Source of the DNA: Siphonodentalium dalli
Lineage: Eukaryota; Mollusca; Scaphopoda; Gadilida; Siphonodentaliidae
Direction: 5' to 3'
DNA length: 64,000 bases
Assembly (NCBI GenBank): GCA_032622095.1
Contig: CP136062.1
Coordinates: 158,528,875 to 158,592,874, forward strand
Of this stretch, positions 133 to 54,197 are shown piece by piece (position 1 is the stretch's first letter; every line of letters begins with the position of its first letter). The translations under genes were made by a program, and so were the position numbers. Under the pieces are notes generated by a model. The model was not told the origin of the DNA. It saw nothing but the letters and a program-made list of their open reading frames with translations, and did no database searches.

Positions 133-186
133 TAATTGAACCATCACCACTGCCACCCACAGTGCGACCAACAACACCAGCGCCAG
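133..186 (+). CDS. Pro/Thr-rich linker exon, copy A1
   Basis: This is a 54-nt exon between a good acceptor (CCATTTCAG, ending at 132) and a good donor (GTATGT, starting at 187). Completed by a G from the previous exon it reads VIEPSPLPPTVRPTTPAPG, with 7 Pro and 3 Thr in 18 residues. It is phase 1-1, exactly like the TSP1 exons around it, so it can be gained or lost without shifting the frame. Such Pro/Thr stretches usually act as extended, possibly O-glycosylated spacers between extracellular domains. An in-frame ATG upstream gives a longer open frame, but the splice signals and the phase match favour an internal exon. Confidence 0.72.
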
Positions 187-2012
187 GTATGTTCAATAAA
201 ATTACTGCTAAAATACGGATTGCTGACCAGTTTCTGACAAGTGAGTCTGTGCACCATTACTTAGCAACGCAGTACAATATACATCAATTGTTAACTCGGC
301 AGTTGTCAGGTCACGGTGTTTAATCGCCCCACCCAAATATTGGTCAAAATGTTCAATAGTTAGAAAAGTGCCTCACACAACATTTGGTGGAAGTTTTACA
401 CAAGATATAGGTTGAAATTGTTCTCATTGTTTGATTTTCAGTGATTTGTGGGGAATTTGTTAAATTTATACCGACAGCAGTATGTTTTCCGACTTTTGTT
501 AAAAGACTGAAATGGCCACCAGTTGGAAATTTCCAACTTTCTTTAGGGGGAATATTTACGTGGCAACCGTTGGAAATATCCAATAGTTCGAAAGTTTGAG
601 GTACCAGCTGGAAACTCCAACCAACGGGGTAGGTTGCAAGAGCAACAGTGTGAACCTAGTAGTTTGGTTTGGTCAGGATCAATGGTGCAGTATACATTCC
701 AAGGTAGACACCCCAACGTGTACTTTCTAGCCACTTCCATGGTATTGTTTTAATTCAATTAAATTAGTTAACATTCTTATCAACATATATTTGTTCGACA
801 ATATTGGAATCAGTGGCATGTAAATGCAAATATTAATTGCAGTGGCTACAGGCAAACATTTAATATGTATGTATAATATTTGCATATAGAAATGGCATAA
901 TCATATGTATATCATCATATTTATCTCATATATCGGATTATTGTATTTTTTTCCAATTTTCCAATGTTTTTTCAATAATATCTACTAGATTAGATTATGC
1001 TGTATGGAACTGGTTCAGAATGGTGACTTCATTGTGTATTGCTCATGTTAACTTACCAATGGAGCTATGGAATATGCCACTCATGTGTTCCCAAAAATAG
1101 ATTTTACAAAATGTGGTATAAAAGTCACCATGTGGTGTTCTGGTCATATTTCAACAATCAATGCGCAGAACTGTGTATCTCTTTATCTCAAAGTGGTAGC
1201 CAAACTTGCTGCCAAAATATGGAAAATGGTAAATATTGCCCCAGCAGGCCATGTATTCGATTACAATCTGTGCTCGATGAATAAAAATGGTTATTCTGTC
1301 TTATTGACATTGAATACCAACATTTCTGATACACTTTGGTTAACTGTTCCTATTGTAGCCATTGATATTGCCAGAATTATTGGAATTTTCTCTCACAATC
1401 TTGCTATAAAAATAGGCAAAAAATCACTTTTAAGGTTTCGACCATTTATTCAAGTAAACTTAAACTGTCTTTGGTATCAAATGTGTTTATTGTTTTGACA
1501 AGACTTGAATGCATTACACTGAGGTGTTTTCAGACCAAATAATCAAGATGGCTTGAAAAATAGCAACCACATTTGGTAAAAACATTTGATTATTGCACAT
1601 ATATCTCAAAATGGTAGCAAATTGTGACTCACTTAGTTATTAAATATTTTAATTAATCAACTGACAACTGTATTCTATTCTGGTTGTCCCAGTGTCTTAT
1701 GGGCCGTGACAAACTGAATTTAAAGGATTCAGTATGTAACTTTGCCGAAAACATCTTTTGGGATGCTGGCCATTTTTTAACAGAAATGGACAGAACAATG
1801 AAATTGATCTGAAAGGGGCCATATTGTAAGGCTACTCTGCCCCAATAACATAAAAACTCTGGACCATTGGCAACCAAATTGATTGACTAATGTCAGGAAA
1901 ACAGTTTCATCCGTTTCGCATATAGCATGCCAGCAAGATGTAGAACTCTCTGACAGTACCTCTCCGTCAATTAACATATCCTTGAGTTATTGTGGAGAGC
2001 GAAAGCCACCCA

Positions 2013-2650
2013 GTGGTACACATGTACAATCCACATAGGGCCATAGTGTTACTCTATATATATACATACATAACACATAAATGACCATGTAACCACTCGC
2101 TTTATATACATACACCTCACCCATGACCATACACCCACACTTGGGTATACTCGTACACCTCACAATTGACAATACAGCCACGAGTTACCATGCATGTACA
2201 CCATGTATACTCCTACTCTTCACTCATGCCACATATAGTCACCACATGTATATATATTCACCACATTCGTGATCATAGTGTCACCTCTTGTATAATATTC
2301 GCCTCAACATTGGCCATACAATCTCTCCATCTATATCAATTTGCCACACCATGGCGATATAGCCACTCAAGATATACATATACACTACAACCATAGCAGT
2401 AGCATCACTTATACACATCACCAAATGTAAAACATCCCTTCCATATCTACAAATACCCACAAACATGGCCATGCATACACTTCAGACTTGCATATACACC
2501 TAACTCGTGACAATTCAGCCACTCTATATATACCAAATTCGTGGTCATACAGCTACTCTTTGTTCAACTATCGACATTAGCCACTTAATATATACATGCA
2601 CTGTGTGTAATGATGTACACCTCGCCCATCCCATATAATCACCACAGGTA
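2013..2650. repeat. Degenerate 35-40-bp minisatellite-like tract, A1
   Basis: The tract repeats loosely around the theme TATACACCTCA...TGACCATACAGCCACTC. Examples are the ACACCTCACCCATGACCATA, ACACCTCACAATTGACAATA and CACCTAACTCGTGACAATTC stretches. The period drifts, so this looks like an old decayed array. Open frames here on both strands are low-complexity and not credible genes. Confidence 0.6.
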
Positions 2651-2988
2651 CAAACCGACACCTCGCGATTGGTCCCATGGCTTTGGTCGATCCATTAATT
2701 TTAGTTTTTCCAAGGTAACCCTGTACGTCGTTGCCACCGATGTTGCCCGAAATATCGCCCAAGGTCATTTTCGGGTACTCGTGTTAAGGTCATGTTGGGT
2801 GGACAAAATAACCCAACATATTTCCCGTCCCGAGTTGACCATACATAACAAATTTCCCATCGATGTCACCGCTGACTACCGAGATATCGCCCAATGTCAT
2901 ATGTGGGTATCCGTTTCAAGGTCAAGGTCACCTCGGGCGGACAAACTGACCCGACGAAAATCTCCCGCGTCCCTTGGAAAGTACGAAA

Positions 2989-3490
2989 TTTCGTCTCGAT
3001 ATCCCCAGTTTTGACCTGCCGTATATTTTCACTAAAGTAGATAAAAGCTCTTTAATAGCGACGCCTCATATACAAACGCTCATTAATTATCATGCGATTA
3101 ACCCATCAATCCACATTACGGTGGCAGTTGAAGGGTGAAGGAGTGGTCGCACGGGCTCGCAAATGGTCCGAGTGCATTGCCTGTTGTTTTTGCCCTTACA
3201 CAGCTAGTTTGGGTTCAATCGGCCCAGCCGTTTTCGTCTCGATATCCCCAGTTTCCGAGACGGTCAAATGCCGTATATTTTCACTAAAGTAAATAAACGC
3301 CCTTTAATAGCCACGCGTCATATACAAACGCTCATTAATTATCACGCGATTAACCCATCAATCCCCATGGCGGTGGTAGTTGAAGGGTGAATGTGTGGTC
3401 GCACGGGCTCGCGAATGGTCCGTTGACACTTTCCGTGACTTTTTACCCTTAGATAGGAAATTTGGGATCAATCGGTCGAGCCGTTTTCGA
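2989..3490. repeat. 252-bp tandem pair (dispersed element), A1
   Basis: GTATATTTTCACTAAAGTA recurs at 3021 and 3273, followed in both monomers by matching blocks (AACGCTCATTAATTATCA, GATTAACCCATCAATCC, GTTGAAGGGTGAA, GTCGCACGGGCTCGC, CAATCGG...GCCGTTTTCG). A third, partial end (TTTCGTCTCGATATCCCCAG) precedes the first monomer. The pair lies directly upstream of the half TSP1 exon and probably belongs to the insertion that separated it from its 5' half. Confidence 0.75.
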
Positions 3491-3586
3491 GTCTATAAAG
3501 GACACAAATATATACGGAAGTCTCAAACAATATAGTAGATTTATTATTCACGAGCAGTCAGCGTTCAGTGATTGTGACAAATAACG

Positions 3587-3725
3587 TGTACAAAGAAATG
3601 TGGTGATGGACTAGAATACTATAAGGGAACTTGTACTAATCCTGCCCCGACAAATGGTGGTAAACAATATCATGGTATCAGCATGAAGAGTGCAACGTGT
3701 AATACACAATCTTGTATTGTTCCAG
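3587..3725 (+). pseudogene. 5'-truncated TSP1 pseudoexon, copy A1
   Basis: The frame starting TGT ACA AAG AAA TGT GGT reads as the second half of a TSP1 domain: C-T-K-K-C-G-D-G, then a Y-Y-K-G-T-C strand, N-P-A-P-T-N-G-G and C-N-T-Q-S-C. It has four lesions. The Trp-containing first half is missing. An in-frame TGA lies 12 nt before the first Cys. The fourth Cys is Tyr (G-G-K-Q-Y). The expected donor after CCAG is TTGTGT rather than GT. The upstream sequence is repeat-derived. It is best read as an exon broken by a repeat insertion before the A units were amplified, since all six copies share the lesions. Confidence 0.7.
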
Positions 3726-4155
3726 TTGTGTACAAAATGTAACAGCACCACACATGCATCACCATTTGGAAGTATAAGAAAGCCATCATTTTCATTAACT
3801 ATCAACCAGCATGTTGTTACGAAGTTAAAGTCTGAGACTGAATCATTGTTTATAATGCACTTCAACTCGGGTTATTTACAAATATAGCCCATAGCATATA
3901 TAACATTCATATTATGCATGTCACACTTGGATTAGTAAGTGGAGGTTATAAGTTTAAAGGTGGTACCATGTTTGGAATATGTAGCACTTTATCATAAAGC
4001 AACTTAACTGGCAACTGAGTTGAGACAGTGATGAAACTTTGTTATTAGGTCTGAATTACAAGTGTAGATTATATAGTTATATGCAGAAACCCTATAACAA
4101 TACTGAAAGACTGTTCTTCCCTTATAAATATTTGAATGTGTTTTCTCTCGTGCAG

Positions 4156-4371
4156 TTAAAGGAAATTGGGGTGCGTGGTCACCAGTCGAGCCAGAAGGAC
4201 CAGGTTACCCTACAGACGGTAATAACGATGGACCTAAATGTAGTGCTAAATGTGGAGGTGGAGTGCAGAAATGGACCCGATCTTGTAACAAGCCAGCACC
4301 ATTGAATGGCGGTGCAAATTGTGTAGGAAATACAATGAAATCGAAATCATGCAACACTAAGCTATGTCCAG
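4156..4371 (+). CDS. TSP1 domain exon, type A, copy A1
   Basis: This is a 216-nt exon after a strong polypyrimidine acceptor (TTTTCTCTCGTGCAG) and before donor GTTAGT; phase 1-1. It encodes one TSP1 domain of 72 residues: W5 and W8 form WxxW (a C-mannosylation motif); Cys at 29, 33, 44, 56, 66 and 71; CGGG at 33-36; a Lys-Trp-Thr-Arg strand at 39-42; N-K-P-A-P-L-N-G-G at 45-53; C-N-T-K-L-C at the end. The six cysteines fit the usual three disulfides. Twenty residues separate W8 from C29, against about three in a canonical TSP1 domain, so there is an extra loop rich in Pro, Gly and Asp. The O-fucose site CxxS/TC is absent (C-S-A-K-C). Longer open frames overlapping it in other phases are shadows. 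Confidence 0.93.
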
Positions 4372-5628
4372 GTTAGTTCACCCAGTTACCACATATTAAA
4401 CTTTTATGTTTTACTAACAACGATATTGTTCTGTACATTAGTTTTTCCCAGATAAGATTAAGAGAAGTTTTTAAAAGGGTGAATGGATATTTGGAGTGGT
4501 TGTATTAAAACACTGACATATAACTCACCTTATATACACAGGTACTTCAATTATTTTAATCTCCATATATTTCTAAGAACAATTTCGATGATGTAATCTT
4601 TCTCCAATGTTTACCTGTTTTACTGGACTTTGATTGATAATGTAACAGAACTGTCCCAATGTTGACATAACTCTCGTTTTGACACACGGAATCTGGTCGT
4701 TGGAGTGTTATTTTTAATAGAAATAATAACATTTCTGATCTATGTGTGGCATAATGAGCAGTTCTGTGAAGACACGAGTACCTTAAATTGTTCATGTTAA
4801 TTATATCAAAGCAAAATATTCATTGTTTGTTATTTTTTAATGATAATTTGTGATGTTAATAGTTAACAAAATCAAATGACCTCACCCTGCTCTTTCATAT
4901 TATGTTTACTTATGGTCATATTAAGGGATATGTTTTCTTAACATTACAGTATCCCACACACATTTCATAGATGTTTGAAAAGGGGGGATATTTGAAGTGG
5001 CTGTATTAAAACTCATAGTAACACAGGAGAGACTATTTTGTGAATAAGGTTATTAATACTGTGTGGGGATCAATAACAAAGGGGTGTGTAGCCTATATTT
5101 GTAGGCTGATGAACTGATAGATATCAACGTAGTAGAACAAGATAGTTTATGTTGTTTGAGGCTCAATAACCAGTGAGTGGTGGTATATGTGGTTGTTGCT
5201 CAGCTCACGAGATTCGCAATTCAAGCATTCAAAATATAGTAATAATTTTATTGAAATGTCTCGTCTCATAAATTTTTAGACAAATTAATCTCTGCTTGGC
5301 CAATTGCTGAATTTGGTCGTCGAATAAGTGTGTTCATATGCCATGTCCTCAATGATGATACCTTCTTTACAGACGTTCATGCGCATTACTATTCGTGTTA
5401 TATCAATGTTGCCAACACATGCGTCCCTTAAATATTTCATGTTAATAGATTATTGCACAATATTCATATATATCTTTATTTCCTCCATCTAGGAGAGTAT
5501 GATTTACAAAATTATAACATAGTAATATAGAAAGGAAAATAGATAATTATTCCCGCCACTATGAGGCACAAGCACTCATCCAATCAACCTAGCACGGGCA
5601 CACAATCTCATCAGCATGCATCCTAATC

Positions 5629-5745
5629 CATGTATACACATATACATACAAAAGTATATACATACATACACACGCACACCCTCCCTCACACATAAACACC
5701 CTTACATACACACATGTATACATACGTCCATACAACACAAATATA
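5629..5745. repeat. CA/TA-rich simple tract, in all A and B units
   Basis: This is an alternating TACATACA/CACACA low-complexity stretch. The same tract recurs at about 13074, 20519, 27966, 35439, 42890, 46854 and 50819. It and the following His/Thr-coding-looking sequence produce open frames of 64-128 codons rich in His and Thr, which are compositional artefacts. Directly downstream (5774-5824) is a short tRNA-like stretch, described under findings. Confidence 0.7.
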
Positions 5746-6603
5746 AACCTTATTTACACTGGTGCACAATCATGTTGTGGGGTTAAGGAGACGATCACTC
5801 GATCTTTTCGACAATCCCGGGCGCTTTGCGCCCACCCACTCTCTCATGCACAATCATACTTATGCACACACAGGCGCGCACACAAGCGTCCACTTACACG
5901 CGCACACATATATATACTCAACTACAAAAACAACGAACAAAATATACCTGGATTGATGCCCAGTATTTTTGTATAAGAAAATGCCTATAAGGTACCGTCC
6001 CTTAGTTGATTACTACCACACATGCAGGCAAACATTCACAAGAGATATGCAGGACATGCCGAAACACGGAATTCACGGGGAACTGAATGAAAGATAATCG
6101 ACTTGAGTTAGTCAGTTTATAGTAAACGTGGTCAAATGTTCACCAGTAATTTAAGTAAACTCACACTTTTCTCAATATAACTCATAACAATTTAGACACG
6201 GAATGGGCAGGAGCCGGGACCAAAGAATCATTTTGCACCAATACCACTTAATCAACTCGAACGGCGGCGGTGGATATTCTAGTTAAGAACATGCGTGTAT
6301 CAGTATCTACAGATCTACTGTGTGTGACCCACATTATGTGAGTAGAGGAGGGATGCCCTATAGCAGAAGAGTCCACAATTAGAGGTACCATGTCTTACCT
6401 ACCGGAAGCTGACATAAGCTAATGATAGGTAGAGCACTCTGCTGTATAGGCAGTTTCTGATATAGTCATAAAGAGTAGGAAAATAAAAGATAGCAGAAAC
6501 CCAGAGAACACATAAAAATTTCGTGTTATGATTTATATTTCATAATAATATTTAATTTAATCATTGTATGATAACGTTATGTGAAAAAGAAATAATCAAA
6601 AAA

Positions 6604-6851
6604 GCGAGGCCATATGTCGCCTCGCATATATAAGAGAATGCATTGGCCTAAAAAAATCATTTTTTACACTTTTTACCATTTTTTCTTACATTCTTTAACA
6701 ATTTTATAATTTTTTCTCACATTTTTTAACAATTTTTATAATATATTTCTACATTCTTTGACATATTTTTAATATGTGTTAAGCCAATGCATTCTCTTAT
6801 ATATGCGAGGCGACCTATGGTCGACTCGCATATATACGAGAATGCATTGGC
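6604..6851. mobile_element. Foldback/MITE-like element, A1
   Basis: A 31-bp arm at 6617-6647 (TCGCCTCGCATATATAAGAG...) is perfectly inverted at 6783-6813, around an A/T-rich centre of T-runs and ACATTTT motifs. A third arm in direct orientation with two mismatches ends at 6851. Outer mini-hairpins (GCGAGGC...GCCTCGC) flank the arms. No coding capacity. This fits a non-autonomous inverted-repeat transposon with a nested or duplicated end. No clear target-site duplication was found. Confidence 0.65.
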
Positions 6852-7577
6852 ACAGGGCCGTTATGTTGGGTAAAGGGTTAAACCCTTCTACTCGTTGAAC
6901 TCCTGTATAGGTATCTAGTGCAAAAGGCAACAAAGGCAAAGTATTATATTAGATTCTCCTAATTATGCAATTATAGATATATGACATGTATCTCAAGTTT
7001 CGAAACTAAACACTATGCTATTATTTTATTTGAACTTGAAGTTGAATTTGAGCAATGTATTATATATTTTCATTGTATACCTGTCCACAGCACCGCTTGC
7101 GCAATGTCAGTAATTGCGGTGTCCCTGTTTTTATGACGGTGTGACAGAGGCAGACACATTACATAAGCATTCCTTTTCCTGTCACAACTCAATCAATACT
7201 CCCTCCTTTGAATAAGTCCAATGAGCAGTTGTTGGCTCATTTTGCCAAGGACACGACACAACTTTGCTGTTAAAAATTAAACATTGCTTGATCGCTACAA
7301 AATATGGCTGCAGGGTTGTCTTCAGCATGAGCAGTGGGTCATTCACCTGTGATTTTCCCTCAACTTTGATCAAAATCGAAGCGTCTGCGGTCGCACTTAA
7401 TGTGACTATATAGTTTTTGAGTCTCGTCGGCAACACCTCTTGACCATTGTACAAACCACAAGCTATACAATTATATATCAAGTGCACCCGTTTAAGCATC
7501 ACCAAGTTGCTTTCCATTACAAGACAATACTATTGTTGAATTCACAGTTTAATAAGAAACAATGCATTCCATTTCAG

Positions 7578-11600: not shown

Positions 11601-11816
11601 TTAAAGGAAATTGGGGTGCGTGGTCACCAGTCGAGCCAGAAGGACCAGGTTACCCTACAGACGGTAATAACGATGGACCTAAATGTAGTGCTAAATGTGG
11701 AGGTGGAGTGCAGAAATGGACCCGATCTTGTAACAAGCCAGCACCATTGAATGGCGGTGCAAATTGTGTAGGAAATACAATGAAATCGAAATCATGCAAC
11801 ACTAAGCTATGTCCAG
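11601..11816 (+). CDS. TSP1 domain exon, type A, copy A2
   Basis: Same sequence as the A1 TSP1 exon, acceptor and donor included; 216 nt, phase 1-1. Joins in frame to the A2 linker upstream and the A3 linker downstream. Confidence 0.93.
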
Positions 11817-19045: not shown

Positions 19046-19261
19046 TTAAAGGAAATTGGGGTGCGTGGTCACCAGTCGAGCCAGAAGGACCAGGTTACCC
19101 TACAGACGGTAATAACGATGGACCTAAATGTAGTGCTAAATGTGGAGGTGGAGTGCAGAAATGGACCCGATCTTGTAACAAGCCAGCACCATTGAATGGC
19201 GGTGCAAATTGTGTAGGAAATACAATGAAATCGAAATCATGCAACACTAAGCTATGTCCAG
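19046..19261 (+). CDS. TSP1 domain exon, type A, copy A3
   Basis: Identical in sequence to the A1 and A2 TSP1 exons although the flanking introns carry several differences; 216 nt, phase 1-1. Confidence 0.93.
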
Positions 19262-26493: not shown

Positions 26494-26709
26494 TTAAAGG
26501 AAATTGGGGTGCGTGGTCACCAGTCGAGCCAGAAGGACCAGGTTACCCTACAGACGGTAATAACGATGGACCTAAATGTAGTGCTAAATGTGGAGGTGGA
26601 GTGCAGAAATGGACCCGATCTTGTAACAAGCCAGCACCATTGAATGGCGGTGCAAATTGTGTAGGAAATACAATGAAATCGAAATCATGCAACACTAAGC
26701 TATGTCCAG
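26494..26709 (+). CDS. TSP1 domain exon, type A, copy A4
   Basis: Identical to the A1-A3 exons; 216 nt, phase 1-1, strong pyrimidine-rich acceptor and GTTAGT donor. Confidence 0.93.
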
Positions 26710-32800: not shown

Positions 32801-33301
32801 TTTCGTCTCGATATCCCCAGTTTTGACCTGCCGTATATTTTCACTAAAGTAGATAAACGCTCTTTAATAGCGACGCCTCATAAACAAACGCTCATTAATT
32901 ATCACGCGATTAACCCATCAATCCACATTACGGTGGCAGTTGAAGGGTGAAGGAGTGGTCGCACGGGCTCGCGAATGGTCCGAGTGCATTGTCTGTTGCT
33001 TTTGCATTTACACAGCTAGTTTGGTTTCAATCGGCCCAGCCGTTTTCGTCTCGATATCCCCAGTTTCCGAGACGGTCAAATGCCGTATATTTTCACTAAA
33101 GTAAATAAACGCTCTTTATTGGCCACGCGTCATATACAAACGCTCATTAATTATCACGCGATTAACCCATCAATCCCCATGGCGGTGGCAGTTGAAGGGT
33201 GAATGGTGGTCGCACGGGCTCGCGAATGGTCCGTTGACACTTTCCGTGACTTTTTACCCTTAGATAGGAAGTTTGGGATCAATCGGTCGAGCCGTTTTCG
33301 A
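32801..33301. repeat. 252-bp tandem pair, A5
   Basis: Two monomers with private differences in the first (GTCTGTTGCTTTTGCATTTA for the usual GCCTGTTG...CCCTTA stretch), marking the right part of the diverged block in this unit. Confidence 0.75.
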
Positions 33302-33966: not shown

Positions 33967-34182
33967 TTAAAGGAAATTGGGGTGCGTGGTCACCAGTCGA
34001 GCCAGAAGGACCAGGTTACCCTACAGACGGTAATAACGATGGACCTAAATGTAGTGCTAAATGTGGAGGTGGAGTGCAGAAATGGACCCGATCTTGTAAC
34101 AAGCCAGCACCATTGAATGGCGGTGCAAATTGTGTAGGAAATACAATGAAATCGAAATCATGCAACACTAAGCTATGTCCAG
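33967..34182 (+). CDS. TSP1 domain exon, type A, copy A5
   Basis: Identical to the A1-A4 exons, 216 nt, phase 1-1. It lies in the conserved right part of the mosaic unit, so its identity says little about selection by itself. Confidence 0.93.
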
Positions 34183-41400: not shown

Positions 41401-41616
41401 TTAAAGGTAATTGGGGTGCGTGGTCACCAGTCGAGCCAGAAGGACCAGGTTACCCTACAGACGGTAATAACGATGGACCTAAATGTAGTGCTAAATGTGG
41501 AGGTGGATTGCAGAAATGGACCCGATCTTGTAACAAGCCAGCACCATTGAATGGCGGTGCAAATTGTGTAGGAAATACAATGAAATCGAAATCATGCAAC
41601 ACTAAGCTATGTTCAG
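41401..41616 (+). CDS. TSP1 domain exon, type A, copy A6 (variant)
   Basis: The only A-type exon that differs from the rest: GGA to GGT at Gly3 (silent), GTG to TTG at residue 37 (Val to Leu after CGGG) and CCA to TCA at residue 72 (Pro to Ser). All six Cys, WxxW and the splice sites are kept. Splicing to the first B-type exon (44080) is in frame. The differences match the older standing of this unit seen in its introns. Confidence 0.93.
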
Positions 41617-44079
41617 GTTAGTTCACCCAGTTACCACATATTAAACTTTTATGTTTTACTAACAACGATATTGTTCTGTACATTAGTTTTTCCCAGATAG
41701 GATTAAGAGAAGTTTTTAAAAGGGTGAATGGATATTTGGAGTGGTTGTATTAAAACACTGACATATAACTCACCTTATATACACAGGTACTTCAATTATT
41801 TTAATCTCCATATATTTCTAAGAACAATTTCGATGATGTTATCTTTCTCCAATGTTTACCTGTTTTACTGGACTTTGATTGATAATGTAACAGAACTGTC
41901 CCAATGTTGACATAACTCTCGTTTTGACACACGGAATCTGGTCGTTGGAGTGTTATTTTTAATAGAAATAATAACATTTCTGATCTATGTGTGGCATAAT
42001 GAGCAGTTCTGTGAAGACACGAGTACCTTAAATTGTTCATGTTAATTATATCAAAGCAAAATATTCATTGTTTGTTATTTTTTAATGATAATTTGTGATG
42101 TTAATAGTTAAGAGTATGATTATGTAACAAAATCAAATGACCTCACCCTGCTCTTTCATATTATGTTTACTTACGGTCATATTAAGGGATATGTTTTCTT
42201 AACATTACAGTATCCCACACACATTTCATAGATGTTTGAAAAGGGGGGATATTTGAAGTGGCTGTATTAAAACTCATAGTAACACAGGAGAGACTATTTT
42301 GTGAATAAGGTTATTAATACTGTGTGGGGATCAATAACAAAGGGGTGTGTAGCCTATATATGTAGGCTGATGAACTGATAGACATCAACGTAGTAGAACA
42401 AGATAGTCCATGTTGTTTGAGGCTCAATAACCAGTGAGTGGTGGTATATGTGGTTGTTGCTCAGCTCACGAGATTCGCAATTCAAGCATTCAAAATATAG
42501 TAATAATTTTATTGAAATGTCTCGTCTCATAAATTTTTAGACAAATTAATCTCTGCTTGGCCAATTGCTAAATTTGGTCGTCGAATAAGTGTGTTCATAT
42601 GCCATGTCCTCAATGATGATACTTTATTTACAGACGTTCATGCGCATTACTATTCGTGTTATATCAATGTTGCCAACACATGCGTCCCTTAAATATTTCA
42701 TGTTAATAGATTATTGAAAACTATTCATATATATCTTTATTTCCTCCATCTAGGAGAGTATGGTTTACAAAATTATAACATAGTAATATAGAAAGGAAAA
42801 TAGATAATTATTCCCGCCACTATGAGGCACAAGCCCTCACCCAAACAACCTTGCACGGGCACACAATCTCATCAGCATGCATCCTAATCCATGTATACAC
42901 ATATACATACAAAAGTATATACATACATACACACGCACACCCTCTCTCACACATAAACACCCTTACATACACACATGTATACATACGTCCGTACAACATA
43001 AATATAAACCTTATTTACACTGGTGCACAATCATGTTGTGGGGTTAAGGAGACGATCACTCGATCTTTTCGACAATCCCGGGTGCTTTGCGCCCACCCAC
43101 TCTCTCATGCACAATCATACTTATGCACACACAGGCGCGCACACAAGCGTCCACTTACACGCGCACACATATATATACTCAACTACAAAAACAACGAACA
43201 AAATGTACCTGGATTGATGCCCAGTATTTTTGTATAAGAAAATGCCTATAAGGTACCGTCCCTTAGTTGATTACTACCACACATGCAGGCAAACATTCAC
43301 AAGAGATATGCAGGACATGCCGAAACACGGAATTCACGGGGAACTGAATGAAAGATAATCGACTTGAGTTAGTCAGTTTATAGTAAAAGTGGTCAAATGT
43401 TCACCAGTAATTTAAGTAAACTCACACTTTTCTCAATATAACTCATAACAATTAGACACGGAATGGGCATGAGCCGGGACCAGAGAATCAACTCGATCGG
43501 CGGCGGGTGGATATTCTAGTTAAGAACGTGCGTGTATCAGTATCTACAGATCTACAGTTCTGATTAAGATATATGTGTGTCTGATTGACGTCAAAATATT
43601 CATAGTTTATTTGTTAATTTAAATGGTTAAGAGCATGATTGCAATTACAAAAATATCAAATGGCCACACTTCTCAACCATGTGCATGGAATCTATGTGGG
43701 CTTTATTGTCTTTATATGTGGTCATAATAGAGATATGTTTTCTGTATATTATCCCACACATTATCCCACACATTAACCCACACATTTTACTCTTTTTTAA
43801 TTAGTTGTCGAACGAGCATTGTCATTTTTTTGTTGATTTTAGTGCCACTTTCATGTAAACTTAGTTTCTCCATCGTCATATGGTTAAGTTGACTAGTAGT
43901 TGGAAGTTTTTCTCTTTCTCGTATATGTTAGTATCAGCTTACAACCATAAACTGTTTCTATTATCATGTATGTTTTTTTAAACTGTTAACATTCACATGC
44001 GGATGGTTTTACATGTTATGTATGTATTTTACTATTGCAATATTATGGTACCTTGTCTAATGTCGAGTTTGTACTGTAG

Positions 44080-44295
44080 TTAATGGCAACTGGGGTGAAT
44101 GGAAACCCGTCCAACCAAAAGGAGCGGGATATGACACGGAAGATCCAAGCGACAAACACATGTGTAGTGCTAAATGTGGAGGTGGAGTTAAGAAATGGGT
44201 CCGAACTTGTAACAAACCAGCACCATCGAATGGTGGGACAGCTTGTGAGGGAAGGACGAAGAAATTAAGACCATGCAATACTAAGCCTTGTCAAG
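44080..44295 (+). CDS. TSP1 domain exon, type B1, first copy
   Basis: 216-nt exon after GTACTGTAG and before GTTTGT, phase 1-1. It encodes 72 residues with W5-G-E-W8, Cys at 29, 33, 44, 56, 66 and 71, CGGG at 33-36, Lys-Trp-Val-Arg at 39-42, N-K-P-A-P-S-N-G-G at 45-53 and C-N-T-K-P-C at the end. The inserted loop between W8 and C29 is acidic (Y-D-T-E-D-P-S-D-K-H). It is clearly paralogous to the A-type exon, sharing C-S-A-K-C-G-G-G-V and the C-terminal half. Both splice sites are weaker than those of type A (few pyrimidines, GTTTGT donor), so inclusion could be less efficient; that is inference. Confidence 0.92.
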
Positions 44296-44769
44296 GTTTG
44301 TTTACTACAATCCGTTATGGTCCATCAAGTTTTGTAAAGGTTGCAAAATTAATGCTTGGAGTGGCTGTGTGGGCAGCTACCGACGATAAATACCCGAACA
44401 GACAAATAGGATTAACTGTAAACAATATTATTTATCATTAGTGAGGGACGAAAAGTGTTATAAATAATTATTTTTACCAATGCAAATTTTAAAGTACATT
44501 GCTTTTTCTGACTGTCGTTTTTAACCAGTCGATTAACTATCGAAGGGCATTTTCAGATCTGTTCTGTCCATTGGGTAATTTGTTAGCTACTTTTGAAAGC
44601 GTTTACAAAATATTATAAACCCACTTGCCAAACATGTTGGCAAATGATTTCTTTTACCAAATGTAATTACGTTTTGTTATTGACAAGTTTGTTTTTGTCA
44701 TTTTGCAATTTTGGTAATTGCCAGTACAACCCTTTGGAATAAGCTAAATGGTTACCAACCTAATTTCAG

Positions 44770-44818
44770 CCAATGGTCGCTGGACTGTCTGACTACGATA
44801 CATTATTGCGGCTTATAG
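44770..44818 (+). pseudogene. Relic of terminal-type TSP1 exon, B1
   Basis: After an intact acceptor (CCTAATTTCAG) the sequence reads A-N-G-R-W-T-V then TGA. It matches the start of the intact exon at 54000 (CTGATGGTCGCTGGACTGCC...TTATTGCGGCTTAGAG) with an internal deletion of about 8-9 bp. Similarity stops at CTTA(G)AG, where sequence of the next TSP1 intron begins. It is a dead 5' fragment joined to the following duplication. Confidence 0.7.
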
Positions 44819-44892
44819 GTTTTTCATGTTATGTATGTATTTTACCATTGCAATATTCTGGTACCTTGTCTAATGTCCATTTTGTACTGTAG

Positions 44893-45047
44893 TTAATGGC
44901 AACTGGGGTGAATGGAAACCCGTCCAGCCAAAATGAGCGGGATATGACACGGAAGATCCAAGCTACGAACACATGTGTAGTGCTAAATGTGGAGGTGGGG
45001 TTAAGAAATGGGTCCGAACTTGTAACAAACCAGCACAATCGAATGGT
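44893..45047 (+). pseudogene. TSP1 exon with TGA and lost 3' end, B1
   Basis: The acceptor GTACTGTAG is intact and the first 14 codons match type B1. Codon 15 is then TGA (44934-44936) where the intact exons have GGA, a single G to T change. The rest of the domain stays recognisable up to N-K-P-A-Q-S-N-G, where the sequence jumps to CGCTTAGAGGTTTTTCATG of the next repeat. The fourth to sixth Cys and the donor are lost. If the acceptor were used, the transcript would terminate at once. Confidence 0.85.
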
Positions 45048-45129
45048 CGCTTAGAGGTTTTTCATGTTATGTATGTATTTTACTATTGCAATATTATGGT
45101 ACCGTGCTAATGTCAATTTTGTACTGTAG

Positions 45130-45348
45130 CTGACGGCAATTGGGGTGAATGGAAACCCGTCCAGCCGAAAGGAGTGGGGTACGACGACACTGAGGATCCT
45201 GACGACGAACACATGTGTAGTGCTAAATGTGGAGGTGGGATTAAGAAATGGGTCCGAACTTGCAACAAACCAGCGCTATCGAACGGTGGGGCCGCTTGTA
45301 AAGGAAGGTCGAAGAAATTAAGACCATGCAACACTAAGCCTTGTCAAG
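45130..45348 (+). CDS. TSP1 domain exon, type B2, first copy
   Basis: 219-nt exon (73 codons), acceptor GTACTGTAG, donor GTTTGT, phase 1-1. Starts A-D-G-N-W-G-E-W. The inserted loop is one residue longer than in B1 and more acidic (Y-D-D-T-E-D-P-D-D-E-H). Cys at 30, 34, 45, 57, 67 and 72; CGGGI turn; N-K-P-A-L-S-N-G-G; ends C-N-T-K-P-C-Q. All six disulfide cysteines are present and the O-fucose Ser/Thr is again Lys. Confidence 0.92.
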
Positions 45349-48044
45349 GTTTGTTTACCGCAATTAGTTATGGTCCATCAATTTTGTAAAGGTGGCAAAA
45401 TTATTGCTTATTATTATATCACTGTGTGATATAGCCTTGGAGGTCTGTGCAGACAGCTACCAACGATAGTTTCCGGAACAGACAAAGATAATTAACTGAA
45501 AAAAATACTGTTGTCATTAGTGAGAGACGAACGGTATGTTATAAACAATTACTTTTACCAATGCAAATTATACAGAGCATTGCTTTTTGTGACTCGTATT
45601 TAACCACATTCAATTAACTATCAATGGATCTTTGCAGATTTGTTTTATCCACCGAATAATTTGTTAGCGACTGTTGACGGCGTTTAAACAAATTTATAAA
45701 AACATTTTACCAAATGTAATTATGTTTTGCCATCGACAAGTTTGTTTTTTGCCACTGGCAATTTTGGTAATTGCCAGCGCAACCTTGTATAATAAGCTAA
45801 AGTTATCTTTCTCCAATGTTTACCTGTTTTACTGGACTTTGATTGATAATGTAACAGAACTGTCCCAATGTTGACATAACTCTCGTTTTGACACACGGAA
45901 TCTGGTCGTTGGAGTGTTATTTTTAATAGAAATAATAACATTTCTGATCTATGTGTGGCATAATGAGCAGTTCTGTGAAGACACGAGTACCTTAAATTGT
46001 TCATGTTAATTATATCAAAGCAAAATATTCATTGTTTGTTATTTTTTAATGATAATTTGTGATGTTAATAGTTAAGAGTATGATTATGTAACAAAATCAA
46101 ATGACCTCACCCTGCTCTTTCATATTATGTTTACTTATGGTCATATTAAGGGATATGTTTTCTTAACATTACAGTATCCCACACACATTTCATAGATGTT
46201 TGAAAAGGGGGGATATTTGAAGTGGCTGTATTAAAACTCATAGTAACACAGGAGAGACTATTTTGTGAATAAGGTTATTCATACTGTGTGGGGATCAATA
46301 ACAAAGGGGTGTGTAGCCTATATTTGAAGGCTGATGAACTGATAGACATCAACGTAGTAGAACAAGATAGTTCATGTTGTTTGAGGCTCAATAACCAGTG
46401 AGTGGTGGTATATGTGGTTGTTGCTCAGCTCACGAGATTCGCAATTCAAGCATTCAAAATATAGTAATAATTTTATTGAAATGTCTCGTCTCATAAATTT
46501 TTAGACAAATTAATCTTTGCTTGGCCAATTGCTGAATTTGGTCGTCGAATAAGTGTGTTCATATGCCATGTCCTCAATGATGATACTTTCTTTACAGACG
46601 TTCATGCGCATTAGTATTCGTGTTATATCAATGTTGCCAACACATGCGTCCCTTAAATATTTCATGTTAATAGATTATTGCAAAATATTCATATATATCT
46701 TTATTTCCTCCATCTAGAAGAGTATGGTTTACAAAATTATAACATAGTAATATAGAAAGGAAAATAGATAATTATTCCCGCCACTATGAGGCACAAGCAC
46801 TCATCCAAACAACCTTGCACGGGCACACAATCTCATCAGCATGCATCCTAATCCATGTATACACATATACATACAAAAGTATATACACACATACACACGC
46901 ACACCCTCCCTCGCACATAAACACCCTTACATACACACATGTATTCATACGTCCGTACAACACAAATATAAACCTTATTTACACTGGTGCACAATCATAT
47001 TGTGGGGTTAAGGAGACGATCACTCGATCTTTTCGACCATCCCGGGCGCTTTGCGCCCACCCACTCTCTCATGCACAATCATACTTATGCACACACAGGC
47101 GCGCACACAAGCGTCCACTTACACGCGTGCACATATATATACTCAACTACAAAAACAACGAACAAAATGTACCTGGATTGATGCCCAGTATTTTTGTATA
47201 AGAAAATGCCTATAAGGTACCGTCCCTTAGTTGATTACTACCACACATGCAGGCAAACATTCACAAGAGATATGCAGGACATGCCGAAACACGGAATTCA
47301 CGGGGAACTGAATGAAAGAGAATCGACTTGAGTTAGTCAGTTTATAGTAAAAGTGGTCAAATGTTCACCAGTAATTTAAGTAAACTCACACTTTTCTCAA
47401 TATAACTCATAACAATTTAGACACGGAATGGGCAGGAGCCGGGACCAGAGAATCAACTCGAACGGCGGCGGGTGGATATTCTAGTTAAGAACGTGCGTGT
47501 ATCAGTATCTACAGATCTACAGTTCTGATTAAGATATATGTGTGTCTGATTGACGTCAAAATATTCATAGTTTATTTGTTAATTTAAATGGTTAAGAGCA
47601 TGATTGCAATTACAAAAATATCAAATGGCCACACTTCTCAACCATGTGCATGGAATCTATGTGGGCTTTATTGTGTTTATATGTGGTCATAATAGAGATA
47701 TGTTTTCTGTATATTATCCCACACATTATCCCACACATTAACCCACACATTTTATTCTTTTTTAATTAGTTGTCGAACGAGCATTGTCATTTTTTTGTTG
47801 ATTTTAGTGCCACTTTCATGTAAACTTAGTTTCTCCATCGTCATATGGTTAAGTTGACTAGTAGTTGGAAGTTTTTCTCTTTCTCGTATATGTTAGTATC
47901 AGCTTACGACCATAAACTGTTTCTATTATCATGTATGTTTTTTTAAACTGTTAACATTCACATGCGGATGGTTTTACATGGTATGTATGTATTTTACTAT
48001 TGCAATATTATGGTACCTTGTCTAATGTCGAGTTTATACTGTAG

Positions 48045-48260
48045 TTAATGGCAACTGGGGTGAATGGAAACCCGTCCAACCAAAAGGAGCGGGATATGAC
48101 ACGGAAGATCCAAGCGACAAACACATGTGTAGTGCTAAATGTGGAGGTGGAGTTAAGAAATGGGTCCGAACTTGTAACAAACCAGCACCATCGAATGGTG
48201 GGACAGCTTGTGAGGGAAGGACGAAGAAATTAAGACCATGCAATACTAAGCCTTGTCAAG
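48045..48260 (+). CDS. TSP1 domain exon, type B1, second copy
   Basis: No difference noticed from the exon at 44080; 216 nt, phase 1-1, same GTTTGT donor. Confidence 0.92.
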
Positions 48261-48734
48261 GTTTGTTTACTACAATCCGTTATGGTCCATCAAGTTTTGT
48301 AAAGGTTGCAAAATTAATGCTTGGAGTGGCTGTGTGGGCAGCTACCGACGATAAATACCCGAACAGACAAATAGGATTAACTGTAAACAATATTATTTAT
48401 CATTAGTGAGGGACGAAAAGTGTTATAAATAATTATTTTTACCAATGCAAATTTTAAAGTACATAGCTTTTTCTGACTGTCGTTTTTAACCAGTCGATTA
48501 ACTATCGAAGGGCATTTTCAGATCTGTTCTGTCCATTGGGTAATTTGTTAGATACTTTTGAAAGCGTTTAAAAAATATTATAAACCCACTTGCCAAACAT
48601 GTTGGCAAATGATTTCTTTTACCAAATGTAATTACGTTTTGTTATTGACAAGTTTGTTTTTGTCATTTTGCAATTTTGGTAATTGCCAGTACAACCCTTT
48701 GGAATAAGCTAAATGGTTACCAACCTAATTTCAG

Positions 48735-48783
48735 CCAATGGTCGCTGGACTGTCTGACTACGATACATTATTGCGGCTTAGAG
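48735..48783 (+). pseudogene. Relic of terminal-type TSP1 exon, B2
   Basis: Same fragment as at 44770, with acceptor, seven codons and then TGA. Confidence 0.7.
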
Positions 48784-48857
48784 GTTTTTCATGTTATGTA
48801 TGTATTTTACCATTGCAATATTCTGGTACCTTGTCTAATGTCCATTTTGTACTGTAG

Positions 48858-49012
48858 TTAATGGCAACTGGGGTGAATGGAAACCCGTCCAGCCAAAATG
48901 AGCGGGATATAACACGGAAGATCCAAGCTACGAACACATGTGTAGTGCTAAATGTGGAGGTGGGGTTAAGAAATGGGTCCGAACTTGTAACAAACCAGCA
49001 CAATCGAATGGT
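48858..49012 (+). pseudogene. TSP1 exon with TGA and lost 3' end, B2
   Basis: Same TGA (48899-48901) and same 3' truncation as in B1. One further private change is GATATAACACG for GATATGACACG, which alters Asp to Asn after the stop. Confidence 0.85.
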
Positions 49013-49094
49013 CGCTTAGAGGTTTTTCATGTTATGTATGTATTTTACTATTGCAATATTATGGTACCGTGCTAATGTCAATTTTGTACTGTAG

Positions 49095-49313
49095 CTGACG
49101 GCAATTGGGGTGAATGGAAACCCGTCCAGCCGAAAGGAGTGGGGTACGACGACACTGAGGATCCTGACGACGAACACATGTGTAGTGCTAAATGTGGAGG
49201 TGGGATTAAGAAATGGGTCCGAACTTGCAACAAACCAGCGCTATCGAACGGTGGGGCCGCTTGTAAAGGAAGGTCGAAGAAATTAAGACCATGCAACACT
49301 AAGCCTTGTCAAG
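49095..49313 (+). CDS. TSP1 domain exon, type B2, second copy
   Basis: No difference noticed from the exon at 45130; 219 nt, phase 1-1. Confidence 0.92.
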
Positions 49314-52134
49314 GTTTGTTTACCGCAATTAGTTATGGTCCATCAATTTTGTAAAGGTGGCAAAATTATTGCTTATTATTATATCACTGTGTGATATAGC
49401 CTTGGAGGTCTGTGCAGACAGCTACCAACGATAGTTTCCGGAACAGACAAAGATAATTAACTGAAAAAAATACTGTTGTCATTAGTGAGAGACGAACGGT
49501 ATGTTATAAACAATTACTTTTACCAATGCAAATTATACAGAGCATTGCTTTTTGTGACTCGTATTTAACCACATTCAATTAACTATCAATGGATCTTTGC
49601 AGATTTGTTTTATCCACCGAATAATTTGTTAGCGACTGTTGAAGGCGTTTAAACAAATTTATAAAAACATTTTACCAAATGTAATTATGTTTTGCCATCG
49701 ACAAGTTTGTTTTTTGCCACTGGCAATTTTGGTAATTGCCACCGCAACCTTGTATAATAAGCTAAAGTTATCTTTCTCCAATGTTTACCTGTTTTACTGG
49801 ACTTTGATTGATAATGTAACAGAACTGTCCCAATGTTGACATAACTCTCGTTTTGACACACGGAATCTGGTCGTTGGAGTGTTATTTTTAATAGAAATAA
49901 TAACATTTCTGATCTATGTGTGGCATAATGAGCAGTTCTGTGAAGACACGAGTACCTTAAATTGTTCATGTTAATTATATCAAAGCAAAATATTCATTGT
50001 TTGTTATTTTTTAATGATAATTTGTGATGTTAATAGTTAAGACTATGATTATGTAACAAAATCAAATGACCTCACCCTGCTCTTTCATATTATGTTTACT
50101 TATGGTCATATTAAGGGATATGTTTTCTTAACATTACAGTATCCCACACACATTTCATAGATGTTTGAAAAGGGGGGATATTTGAAGTGGCTGTATTAAA
50201 ACTCATAGTAACACAGGAGAGACTATTTTGTGAATAAGGTTATTCATACTGTGTGGGGATCAATAACAAAGGGGTGTGTAGCCTATATTTGTAGGCTGAT
50301 GAACTGATAGACATCAACGTAGTAGAACAAGATAGTTCATGTTGTTTGAGGCTCAATAACCAGTGAGTGGTGGTATATGTGGTTGTTGCTCAGCTCACGA
50401 GATTCGCAATTCAAGCATTCAAAATATAGTAATAATTTTATTGAAATGTCTCGTCTCATAAATTTTTAGACAAATTAATCTGTGCTTGGCCAATTGCTGA
50501 ATTTGGTCGTCGAATAAGTGTGTTCATATGCCATGTCCTCAATGATGATACTTTCTTTACAGACGTTCATGCGCATTAGTATTCGTGTTATATCAATGTT
50601 GCCAACACATGCGTCCCTTAAATATTTCATGTTAATAGATTATTGCAAAATATTCATATATATCTTTATTTCCTCCATCTAGAAGAGTATGGTTTACAAA
50701 ATTATAACATAGTAATATAGAAAGGAAAATAGATAATTATTCCCGCCACTATGAGGCACAAGCACTCATCCAAACAACCTTGCACGGGCACACAATCTCA
50801 TCAGCATGCATCCTAATCCATGTATACACATATACATACAAAAGTATATACACACATACACACGCACACCCTCCCTCACACATTAACACCCTTACATACA
50901 CACATGTATTCATACGTCCGTACAACACAAATATAAATCTTATTTACACTGGTGCACAATCATATTGTGGGGTTAAGGAGACGATCACTCGATCTTTTCG
51001 ACCATCCCGGGCGCTTTGCGCCCACCCACTCTCTCATGCACAATCATACTTATGCACACACAGGCGCGCACACAAGCGTCCACTTACACGCGCACACATA
51101 TATATGCTCAACTACAAAAACAACGAACAAAATATACCTGGATTGATGCCCAGTATTTTTGTATAAGAAAATGCCTATAAGGTACCGTCCCTTAGTTGAT
51201 TACTACCACACAAGCAGGCAAACATTCACAAGAGATATGCAGGACATGCCGAAACACGGAATTCACGGGGAACTGAATGAAAGAGAATCGACTTGAGTTA
51301 GTCAGTTTATAGTAAAAGTGGTCAAATGTTTACCAGTAATTTAAGTAAACTCACACTTTTCTCAATATAACTCATAACAATTTAGACACGGAATGGGCAG
51401 GAGCCGGGACCAGAGAATCATTTTGCACCAATACCACTTAATCAACTCGAACGGCGGCGGGTGGATATTCTAGTTACGAACGTGCGTGTATCAGTATCTA
51501 CAGATCTACAGTTCTGATTAAGATATATGTGTGTCTGATTGACGTCAAAATATTCATAGTTTATTTGTTAATTTAAATGGTTAAGAGCATGATTGCAATT
51601 ACAAAAATATCAAATGGCCACACTTCTCAACCATGTGCATGGAATCTATGTGGGCTTTATTGTGTTTATATATGGTCATAATAGAGATATGTTTTCTGTA
51701 TATTATCCCACACATTATCCCACACATTACCCACACATTTTACTCGTTTTTAATTAGTTGTCGAACGAGCATTGTCATTTTTTTGTTGATTTTAGTGCCA
51801 CTTTCATGTAAACTTAGTTTTCTCCATCGTCATATGGTTAAGTTGACTAGTAGTTGGAAGTTTTTCTCTTTCTCGTATATGATAGTATCAGCTTACAACC
51901 ATAAACTGTTTCTATTATCATGTATGTTTTTTTAAACTGTTAACATTCACATGCGGATGGTTTTACATGTTATGTATGTATAAACCCACTTGCCAAACAT
52001 GTTGGCAAATGATTTCTTTTACCAAATGTAATTACGTTTTGTTATTGACAAGTTTGTTTTTGTCATTTTGCAATTTTGGTAATTGCCAGTACAACCCTTT
52101 GGAATAAGCTAAATGGTTACCAACCTAATTTCAG

Positions 52135-52183
52135 CCAATGGTCGCTGGACTGTCTGACTACGATACATTATTGCGGCTTAGAG
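52135..52183 (+). pseudogene. Relic of terminal-type TSP1 exon, B3 first
   Basis: Same acceptor, seven codons and TGA as the other relics. Here it lies upstream of an intact TSP1 exon, not the TGA-bearing one. Confidence 0.7.
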
Positions 52184-52257
52184 GTTTTTCATGTTATGTG
52201 TGTATTTTACCATTGCAATATTCTGGTACCTTGTCTAATGTCCATTTTGTACTGTAG

Positions 52258-52473
52258 TTAATGGCCACTGGGGTGAATGGAAACCCGTCCAGCCAAAAGG
52301 AGTGGGATATGACACGGAAGATCCAAACGACAAACACATGTGTAGTGCTAAATGTGGAGGTGGAGTTAAGAAATGGGTCCGAACTTGTAACAAACCAGCA
52401 CCATCGAATGGTGGAACAGCTTGTGAGGGAAGGTCGAAGAAATTAAGACCATGCAATACTAAGCCTTGTCAAG
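52258..52473 (+). CDS. TSP1 domain exon, B1-type recombinant, B3
   Basis: 216-nt exon, phase 1-1, all six Cys and WxxW intact. It differs from the other B1 exons by Asn4 to His, Ala16 to Val, Ser24 to Asn and Thr60 to Ser. Its upstream flank (relic exon, then TGTCCATTTTGTACTGTAG) is that of the TGA pseudoexon, while its downstream flank is that of the intact B1 exon. At codon 15 it has GGA, not TGA. It therefore looks like the product of unequal exchange between the two exon types, or the parent of the TGA exon before the mutation. Confidence 0.92.
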
Positions 52474-52946: not shown

Positions 52947-52995
52947 CCAATGGTCGCTGGACTGTCTGACTACGATACATTATTGCGGCTTAGAG
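52947..52995 (+). pseudogene. Relic of terminal-type TSP1 exon, B3 second
   Basis: Fourth copy of the relic, in its usual place before the TGA exon. Confidence 0.7.
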
Positions 52996-53069
52996 GTTTT
53001 TCATGTTATGTATGTATTTTACCATTGCAATATTCTGGTACCTTGTCTAATGTCCATTTTGTACTGTAG

Positions 53070-53224
53070 TTAATGGCAACTGGGGTGAATGGAAACCCGT
53101 CCAGCCAAAATGAGCGGGATATGACACGGAAGATCCAAGCTACGAACACATGTGTAGTGCTAAATGTGGAGGTGGGGTTAAGAAATGGGTCCGAACTTGT
53201 AACAAACCAGCACAATCGAATGGT
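53070..53224 (+). pseudogene. TSP1 exon with TGA and lost 3' end, B3
   Basis: TGA at 53111-53113 and the same 3' truncation as in B1 and B2. Confidence 0.85.
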
Positions 53225-53306
53225 CGCTTAGAGGTTTTTCATGTTATGTATGTATTTTACTATTGCAATATTATGGTACCGTGCTAATGTCAATTTTGTA
53301 CTGTAG

Positions 53307-53525
53307 CTGACGGCAATTGGGGTGAATGGAAACCCGTCCAGCCGAAAGGAGTGGGGTACGACGACACTGAGGATCCTGACGACGAACACATGTGTAGTGC
53401 TAAATGTGGAGGTGGGATTAAGAAATGGGTCCGAACTTGCAACAAACCAGCGCTATCGAACGGTGGGGCCGCTTGTAAAGGAAGGTCGAAGAAATTAAGA
53501 CCATGCAACACTAAGCCTTGTCAAG
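53307..53525 (+). CDS. TSP1 domain exon, type B2, third copy
   Basis: No difference noticed from the exons at 45130 and 49095; 219 nt, phase 1-1. It splices in frame to the terminal-type exon at 54000. Confidence 0.92.
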
Positions 53526-53999
53526 GTTTGTTTACCGCAATTAGTTATGGTCCATCAATTTTGTAAAGGTGGCAAAATTATTGCTTATTATTATATCACT
53601 GTGTGATATAGCATTGGAGGTCTGTGCAGACAGCTACCAACGATAGTTTCCGGAACAGACAAAGATAATTAACTGAAAAAAATACTGTTGTCATTAGTGA
53701 GAGACGAACGGTATGTTATAAACAATTACTTTCACCAATGCAAATTATACAGAGCATTGCTTTTTGTGACTCGTATTTAACCACATTCAATTAACTATCA
53801 ATGGATCTTTGCAGATTTGTTTTATCCACCGAATAATTTGTTAGCGACTGTTGAAGGCGTTTAAACAAATTTATAAAAACATTTTACCAAATGTAATTAT
53901 GTTTTGCCATCGACAAGTTTGTTTTTTGCCACTGGCAATTTTGGTAATTGCCAGCGCAACCTTGTATAATAAGCTAAATGGTTACCAACCTAATTTCAG

Positions 54000-54197
54000 C
54001 TGATGGTCGCTGGACTGCCTGGAAAATTGACTACAGAAAATTATTGCGGCTTAGAGATGGATTCGGAAGTGGCGGATGTACAGCTATATGTGGCGGTGGA
54101 CTGAGATACTATAAGAGAACATGTACTGGTGGTGCAAAATGTAATGGAAAGAGCGAAATGATGAGATATTGTAACATGCACTCTTGCAAAGACACAG
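54000..54197 (+). CDS. TSP1 domain exon, single-copy terminal type
   Basis: 198-nt exon after CCTAATTTCAG and before GTAGGT, phase 1-1, 66 codons. Starts A-D-G-R-W5-T-A-W8. The inserted loop is basic and hydrophobic (Y-R-K-L-L-R-L-R-D), unlike the acidic B loops. Cys at 27, 31, 42, 48, 58 and 63; CGGGL; Arg-Tyr-Tyr-Lys-Arg-Thr-Cys strand. The stretch between the third and fourth Cys is short (T-G-G-A-K) and lacks the N-K-P-A-P-x-N-G-G signature. Ends C-N-M-H-S-C-K-D-T. It resembles the broken half exon of the A units in the Tyr-Tyr-Lys strand. It is the source of the relic fragments in the B units. Confidence 0.92.

Follow-up and report, generated by a model that had tools for sequence, protein, structure and literature searches.

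The 64,000-nucleotide window analyzed here contains a tandem array of exons. We consider it reasonably likely that they belong to a large animal gene encoding an extracellular protein of TSP1 repeats, and that recurrent unequal exchange has amplified its phase 1-1 exons, introns included, into tandem arrays. Symmetric exons duplicated together with their introns would add whole modules in frame. The array in the window is part of version 1 of the locus; version 2, which was read in part, lies 309–327 kb downstream on the same scaffold and in the same orientation. If the exons are spliced together, the two versions would encode proteins of different length.

Organization of the array

Between positions 133 and 54197 the modules follow one another in frame as (linker–TSP1)x6, (TSP1–TSP1)x3 and a final TSP1 (Table 1). 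All exons are phase 1-1, with linkers of 54 nt, TSP1 exons of 216–219 nt and a last exon of 198 nt, lengths that preserve the reading frame. Self-comparison and exon coordinates agree exactly with the preliminary description of six 7.4-kb (A) units followed by three 4-kb (B) units, and its calculation that each duplication adds 90 or 145 residues through phase 1-1 exons is consistent with all boundaries that were checked. The self-alignments of the units are far above chance: window positions 1–36131 align with 7446–43558 at 99.05% identity, and 41838–47992 with 45802–51981 at 98.6%.

Table 1. Coordinates of array features in the window
Feature	Position	Strand	Remarks
Linker exon (VIEPSPLPPTVRPTTPAP)	133..186	+	phase 1-1
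Further linker exons, starts	7578, 15023, 22468, 29916, 37388	+	54 nt
First 7.4-kb A unit of the window	133..7577	+	linker, TSP1 remnant, TSP1 A
TSP1 remnant of A unit	3578..3739	+	lacks WxxW and, by eye, a donor
Other A-unit TSP1 remnants, starts	11023, 18468, 25916, 33389, 40823	+	
TSP1 exon A	4156..4371	+	216 nt, phase 1-1
TSP1 exon A	11601..11816	+	
TSP1 exon A	19046..19261	+	
TSP1 exon A	26494..26709	+	
TSP1 exon A	33967..34182	+	
TSP1 exon A	41401..41616	+	right-edge copy
Intron segment common to A and B units	4593..6321	+	self-comparison
Left homology edge of 7.4-kb unit (6610)	6604..6651	+	within dispersed palindromic repeat
TSP1 exon Ba, B unit 1	44080..44295	+	216 nt
Dead TSP1 copy, B unit 1	44892..45053	+	in-frame TGA, truncated, acceptor kept
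TSP1 exon Bb, B unit 1	45130..45348	+	219 nt
TSP1 exon Ba, B unit 2	48045..48260	+	216 nt
Dead TSP1 copy, B unit 2	48857..49018	+	
TSP1 exon Bb, B unit 2	49095..49313	+	219 nt
TSP1 exon Ba, B unit 3	52258..52473	+	216 nt
Dead TSP1 copy, B unit 3	53069..53230	+	
TSP1 exon Bb, B unit 3	53307..53525	+	219 nt
Last TSP1-like exon	54000..54197	+	198 nt, phase 1-1; bounds read by eye

The intron segment reported to be shared by both unit types is indeed present in the B units, at 45802–47523 (96.1% identity) and 49767–51512 (97.4%). A 601-base part of it has at least 25 full-length matches in the genome, every one within version 1 or version 2 (40 of 187 candidates scored). We considered that the segment might be a dispersed transposon and dropped this idea; among the matches listed, none outside the two versions is longer than 81 bases.

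The three layers of amplification originally proposed exist, but the nesting goes deeper, and four 37-kb units lie upstream. One more 7.4-kb A unit is located at –7314, and the A array as a whole, whose upstream continuation lies outside the sequence that the earlier account covered, extends to about –26.4 kb, giving version 1 a total of 12 A exons and eight linkers. Frame and splice sites are intact in all A (12/12), B (6/6) and linker (8/8) exons of version 1, the upstream part included, and in 6/6 exons tested in version 2. The last TSP1-like exon has one match per version of the locus. No TSP1 match occurs 3' of the array within 130 kb downstream, and a search for the 5' end of the gene and for an exon beyond 54197 found neither. 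Two open reading frames downstream of the array in the window have no Pfam match.

The earlier account also missed that every unit carries a dead TSP1 copy. All 12 A units of version 1 contain a TSP1 remnant, and a copy with an in-frame TGA is found in three of three B units in both versions. The acceptor retained in the dead B copy could allow mis-splicing into the transcript.

Divergence between units and the second version

The seven long units differ pairwise by 0.03–1.66%. Among the 12 A copies, those at the edges (A1 and A12) differ by 1.3–1.8% from all others, and A6–A11 are 0.0–0.4% apart; the inner copies are thus more alike than the edges. The copies also show a two-unit block pattern (A2/A4, 0.0%; A3/A5, 0.3%). 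An exception to the simple edge pattern is unit L6, which differs by 0.85–0.97% from its neighbors over its full length. Version 2 lacks a two-unit block of exactly 5,289 bp (2,630 + 2,659), a block-wise loss that, with the near-identity of the units, fits unequal exchange. Misaligned pairing of chromosomes, with an offset of one or two units, would change the unit number in this way.

The close similarity of some units, with L2 and L3 only 0.03% different, could instead mean that the assembly misstates part of the array length, through repetition or loss of units or a haplotype switch within the array. Gaps of 100 N occur at 69359 and 155692 in window coordinates, another one immediately precedes version 2, and haplotypic duplication seems common in the assembly. 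We regard this account as distinctly unlikely, since units have differences (up to 1.66%) and spacings (7434–7473 bp in version 1) of their own, the span from –80000 to 69358, which contains the whole version 1 array, is free of N, and the unit types occur in the same order in both versions.

Version 2 differs from version 1 by 0.14% (43 substitutions in 30,688 compared bases). Counts taken from this one assembly, with gaps near by, give 12 A exons in version 1 and nine in version 2 (by exon and by intron segment), eight and seven linkers (via a 401-base stretch around the linker exon), and three B units in each. In addition to the two-unit block, the versions differ by about one 7.4-kb unit and, upstream, by about one 5.4-kb unit. 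If spliced as predicted, the array would encode about 1509 residues in version 1 and 1275 in version 2, 234 fewer. The suggestion that copy number may differ between individuals is partly supported, by two versions within one assembly that are probably alleles.

Version 2 probably represents the second allele of the animal sequenced, placed in tandem, because it starts at the base directly after a 100-N gap, with 100% identity over 1,214 bases there, and because close-scoring exon pairs, judged by scores rather than by letters, occur at 4 of 11 chaperonin loci. These chaperonin genes are as a rule single-copy in animals, and the pairs suggest uncollapsed haplotypes. Version 2 may also stem, though this is less probable, from a genuine tandem segmental duplication of very recent date, after which the unit numbers of the two genes diverged. 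The shared scaffold and orientation are as expected for such a duplication, as are the abundance of nested duplications at the locus, the four 37-kb units among them, and about 16.2 kb of sequence in version 2 that is absent from version 1 and has a gap-free left junction. A duplication does not readily account for a start that coincides exactly with a contig gap within homologous sequence, nor for the chaperonin pairs.

TSP1 modules and weak evidence of selection on the exons

The A, Ba and Bb exons score 26.3, 27.7 and 29.3 bits against Pfam TSP_1 (PF00090), all above the curated cut-off of 21.6. The last exon scores 17.4 bits, below the cut-off, and its C6 relative scores 26.5 bits; we therefore call it TSP1-like. 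The best PDB sequence match, and thus the closest solved structure by sequence, is thrombospondin-1 (PDB 7yyk, 1lsl; E 1.3e-16), whose type 1 repeats share with the array module six cysteines and a W-x-x-W motif. Unlike those repeats, the array module has ~18 additional residues that separate the tryptophans from the first cysteine. Because this insert exceeds the spacing that their pattern allows, regular-expression scans for TSP1 motifs gave no match. The module also differs in its CSAKCG sequence, where Lys occupies a position at which the O-fucose motif calls for Ser or Thr. An AlphaFold model of Bb places strands at residues 3–5, 9–11, 37–46 and 62–69, but the model is weak (mean pLDDT 61.4, pTM 0.48), with the insert (residues 14–29) below pLDDT 50.

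Evidence for selection on the exons is weak. Within the array, variable sites are as frequent in the TSP1 exon (8/217) as in introns (67/1785). Relative to their C6 relatives, dN/dS is 0.24–0.32 for the B exons and 0.47 for A; for the dead B copy it is 0.20 with the same C6 exon as reference and 0.14 with Bb. Since these values resemble those of intact exons, dN/dS cannot separate living from dead exons, and we dropped it as proof of function. Such observations, together with the dead TSP1 copy in every unit, are what one would expect of an untranscribed relic in decay, with neutral multiplication of its tandem units and with frames that are still open only because its copies are young. We nevertheless consider a relic unlikely, given that all 26 of the A, B and linker exons in version 1 have retained frame and splice sites and that the B exons are 86–88% identical in DNA to their C6 relatives, in alignments of 265–268 bases around the 216–219-nt exon. 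The A-type C6 relative has lost its last cysteine.

Relation to known coding repeats

By analogy of architecture, we class the array as a further candidate for the coding VNTRs typified by KIV-2 of human apolipoprotein(a) (LPA). In both, intragenic tandem units of kilobase size contain whole exons and introns, keep the reading frame, and each add an extracellular disulfide module. LPA KIV-2 is described as having 5.6 kb per unit, two short exons and 1 to about 40 units per allele (PMC11462820). The array differs in that its module is TSP1 instead of a kringle, number differences involve more than one nested type of unit, a dead exon is present in each unit, and it is known here from the sequence of one assembly. 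Complement receptor 1, which has size variants, resembles the array in its long homologous repeats, in which sets of extracellular modules recur as large blocks; it differs in having SCR modules and few large blocks, with no kilobase VNTR. Its blocks are described as four LHRs of seven SCRs each (PMC10605242).

The product of a gene with exons multiplied by unequal exchange would be an extended protein of adhesive or matrix-like type, and a higher unit number may increase its reach or avidity. In a more elaborate version, which we find quite improbable, the locus would be a coding VNTR with multiple alleles, whose nested unit types (5.4-kb, 2.66-kb pairs and 7.4-kb) vary in number independently. 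The two proteins of a diploid would then differ by 234 residues over the array and by more upstream, and their length would itself be selected, for example in adhesion or recognition between individuals.

Kilobase-unit coding VNTRs have been described chiefly in a small number of human genes. The array is an invertebrate candidate that uses another module, combines several types of nested unit and occurs in two versions of unequal number within a single assembly. It also carries a warning that tandem haplotigs can conceal such alleles in assemblies, and offers a ready test of protein-length change by unequal exchange. If the array is length polymorphic and expressed, it would tie structural variation directly to how far an extracellular protein reaches or how avidly it binds.

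Organization of the array and its modules

The array includes two kinds of unit: an A unit, which contains a 54-nt linker exon (VIEPSPLPPTVRPTTPAP, with borders tttcag and gtatgt) and a 216-nt TSP1 exon, and a B unit, which contains the TSP1 exons Ba and Bb of 216 and 219 nt. Self-comparison of the DNA confirms that the window holds six 7.4-kb units followed by three of ~4 kb, as the preliminary description had it, and exon lengths and borders bear out its claims that linker, A and B exons are phase 1-1 throughout and that each unit adds 90 (A) or 145 (B) residues. Sequence read on both sides of the window (80 kb before it, 120 kb after it) places the onset upstream, at a diverged linker followed by five A units spaced 2.66 kb apart without linkers between them, and then by a further linker and a seventh long unit. 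This first version of the locus totals 12 A exons, 8 linkers and 6 B exons, all with an open frame and AG/GT borders.

The A, Ba and Bb exons score above the Pfam TSP_1 cut-off of 21.6 bits; the last exon falls below it (17.4 bits), and its relative on contig C6 lies above it (26.5 bits). Thrombospondin-1 is the top match among 25 PDB sequences. In these modules an insert of ~18 residues separates the tryptophans from the first cysteine. Confidence is low in the AlphaFold model of a single domain (mean pLDDT 61.4, with the insert below 50).

Dead TSP1 copies, absent from the preliminary description, accompany the intact exons. All 12 A units contain a TSP1 remnant without WxxW, and every B unit contains a truncated copy that keeps a good acceptor and carries an in-frame TGA (6 of 6 in the two versions together). 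A correct transcript would have to leave these exons out.

Related TSP1 sequence is found elsewhere in the assembly (2,226,750,531 bases, 9 contigs), whose size and TSP1 arrays point to an animal. Four 37-kb units with more TSP1 arrays lie just upstream, and one stretch that contains a single type of TSP1 exon has at least 40 matches, all those listed falling within C2:158.017-158.778 Mb. On another chromosome, C6, the A, B and last exons have relatives in smaller numbers; the A-type relative ends in KQYPG and has lost the last cysteine. The far larger cluster on C3 accounts for many top-scoring matches among the best 150 of 1812 TSP_1 candidates. Open frames in stretches cut from the assembly (L019:3936-4988 and L018:8-487) bear a resemblance, judged by eye, to flavin monooxygenase and to a transposase of hAT type.

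Coordinates of features (window numbering, negative values upstream of the window start; C1-C8, contigs; the window is C2:158528875-158592874, forward strand)
Feature	Position	Remark
First linker exon	-25393 to -25340	array onset
Linker of seventh long unit	-7314	
7.4-kb unit, left homology edge	6610	-26369 in first copy
TSP1 remnant in A unit	3578-3739	example
252-bp repeat	32829-33300	1.9 copies; reported by Tandem Repeats Finder for just one of the 7.4-kb units
Dead B copies	44892-45053, 48857-49018, 53069-53230	
Last TSP1-like exon	54000-54197	after the B units
Satellite, 32-bp unit	54348-56145	56 copies, downstream of last exon
Satellite, 55-bp unit	58558-64000, on to ~69352	stops at 100-N gap
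37-kb units	C2:158339606, 158377165, 158414305, 158451474	
Gap before second version	C2:158768687-158768786	100 N
Relatives of A, B and last exons	C6:43.274-43.288 Mb	L030, L031
TSP1 exon cluster	C3:161.60-161.82 Mb	
Chaperonin pairs	C7:133.43/133.49, C8:26.61/26.65, C1:54.10/54.27, C1:68.37/68.54 Mb	paired by closeness of score

Divergence and duplication of the units

Pairwise differences are 0.03-1.66% among the seven long units and 0.03-0.17% among the first four. Of the 12 A copies (A1-A12, 2.6 kb each), those at the edges, A1 and A12, differ from all others by 1.3-1.8%, and A6-A11 from one another by 0.0-0.4%; unit L6, across its full length, is an exception (0.85-0.97%). These divergences match the pattern that unequal exchange would leave. 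A2 is identical to A4 and A3 is near A5, indicating that short units were duplicated pairwise. The intron segment common to A and B units has 25 full-length matches among the best 40 of 187 candidates, all in this locus. On its left side, the 7.4-kb unit has its homology edge within a palindromic repeat with many nearby relatives, a possible origin point.

Between the first linker exon and the other linkers, 7 of 54 sites differ, compared with 22/989 and 40/2971 in its flanks (uncorrected binomial P 1.8e-4); it may be a diversifying linker or contain a converted patch.

A second version of the locus

A protein search turns up further A and B exons, forming a second set that lies 309-327 kb downstream. 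It shares the three B units and last exon with version 1 and has 9 A exons rather than 12, in agreement with the intron-segment count, and 7 linkers rather than 8 (linker letters read in one of the 7). The offset between versions falls from 327,345 to 321,899 (one 5.4-kb unit upstream), then to 316,610 (5,289 bp = 2,630 + 2,659, one short-unit pair) and to 309,108 (roughly one 7.4-kb unit). The predicted arrays span 1509 and 1275 residues. Four aligned stretches contain 43 substitutions in 30,688 bases (0.14%); L034, which is not homologous, and L035-L036, which are satellite, do not enter this count. Some 16.2 kb of version 2, beginning at L033:9478-10000 and L034, is absent from version 1 (offsets 311,103 and 327,344).

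Version 2 begins directly after a 100-N gap, at 100% identity to version 1, and the version 1 sequence to the left of that point is not found beside version 2 among the matches listed. Chaperonin genes (PF00118) are single-copy in animals and served as a control; pairs of close-scoring exons within one contig occur at 4 of 11 loci, two of which show this for only a single exon or a portion of the gene, so that some haplotypes probably stand in tandem in the assembly. Because of the onset at a gap, the left flank unmatched in those listings and the chaperonin pairs, we regard version 2 as probably the other allele; a real recent duplication is the distinctly less probable reading. Another rival takes the array as partly artefactual, and two further 100-N gaps lie between the versions. 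Whether version 2 is an allele or a duplicate, the number of units has changed very recently.

Selection and interpretation

Compared with the C6 relative, dN/dS comes to 0.24 (Ba), 0.32 (Bb), 0.47 (A) and 0.52 (last exon). The Ba-Bb comparison yields 0.14 and the A-Ba comparison 0.37. Values for the dead B copy are as low as those of intact exons (0.20 against C6, 0.14 against Bb), so dN/dS fails to separate living from dead. Comparisons with its nearest B exons (0.38 and 1.6) and between two intact Ba exons (0.55) are based on 5 to 7 changes each. Variable sites within the array are alike in exons (8/217) and introns (67/1785), which counts in favour of a rival, less probable reading of the array as a neutral relic. 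Since dN/dS is uninformative and exons and introns vary alike, the case for a predicted function is one of intact frames and splice sites rather than of a selection test.

No such TSP1 array is described in the literature searched; most subscription journals lay outside that search, which is hence no proof of absence. The preliminary description had proposed a length-polymorphic extracellular protein, an interpretation that is partly supported and is strengthened by a second version with another unit number. In the best reading, the locus would encode an in-frame array of extracellular modules whose unit number is still changing, and would work like the coding VNTR LPA KIV-2 (PMC11462820).
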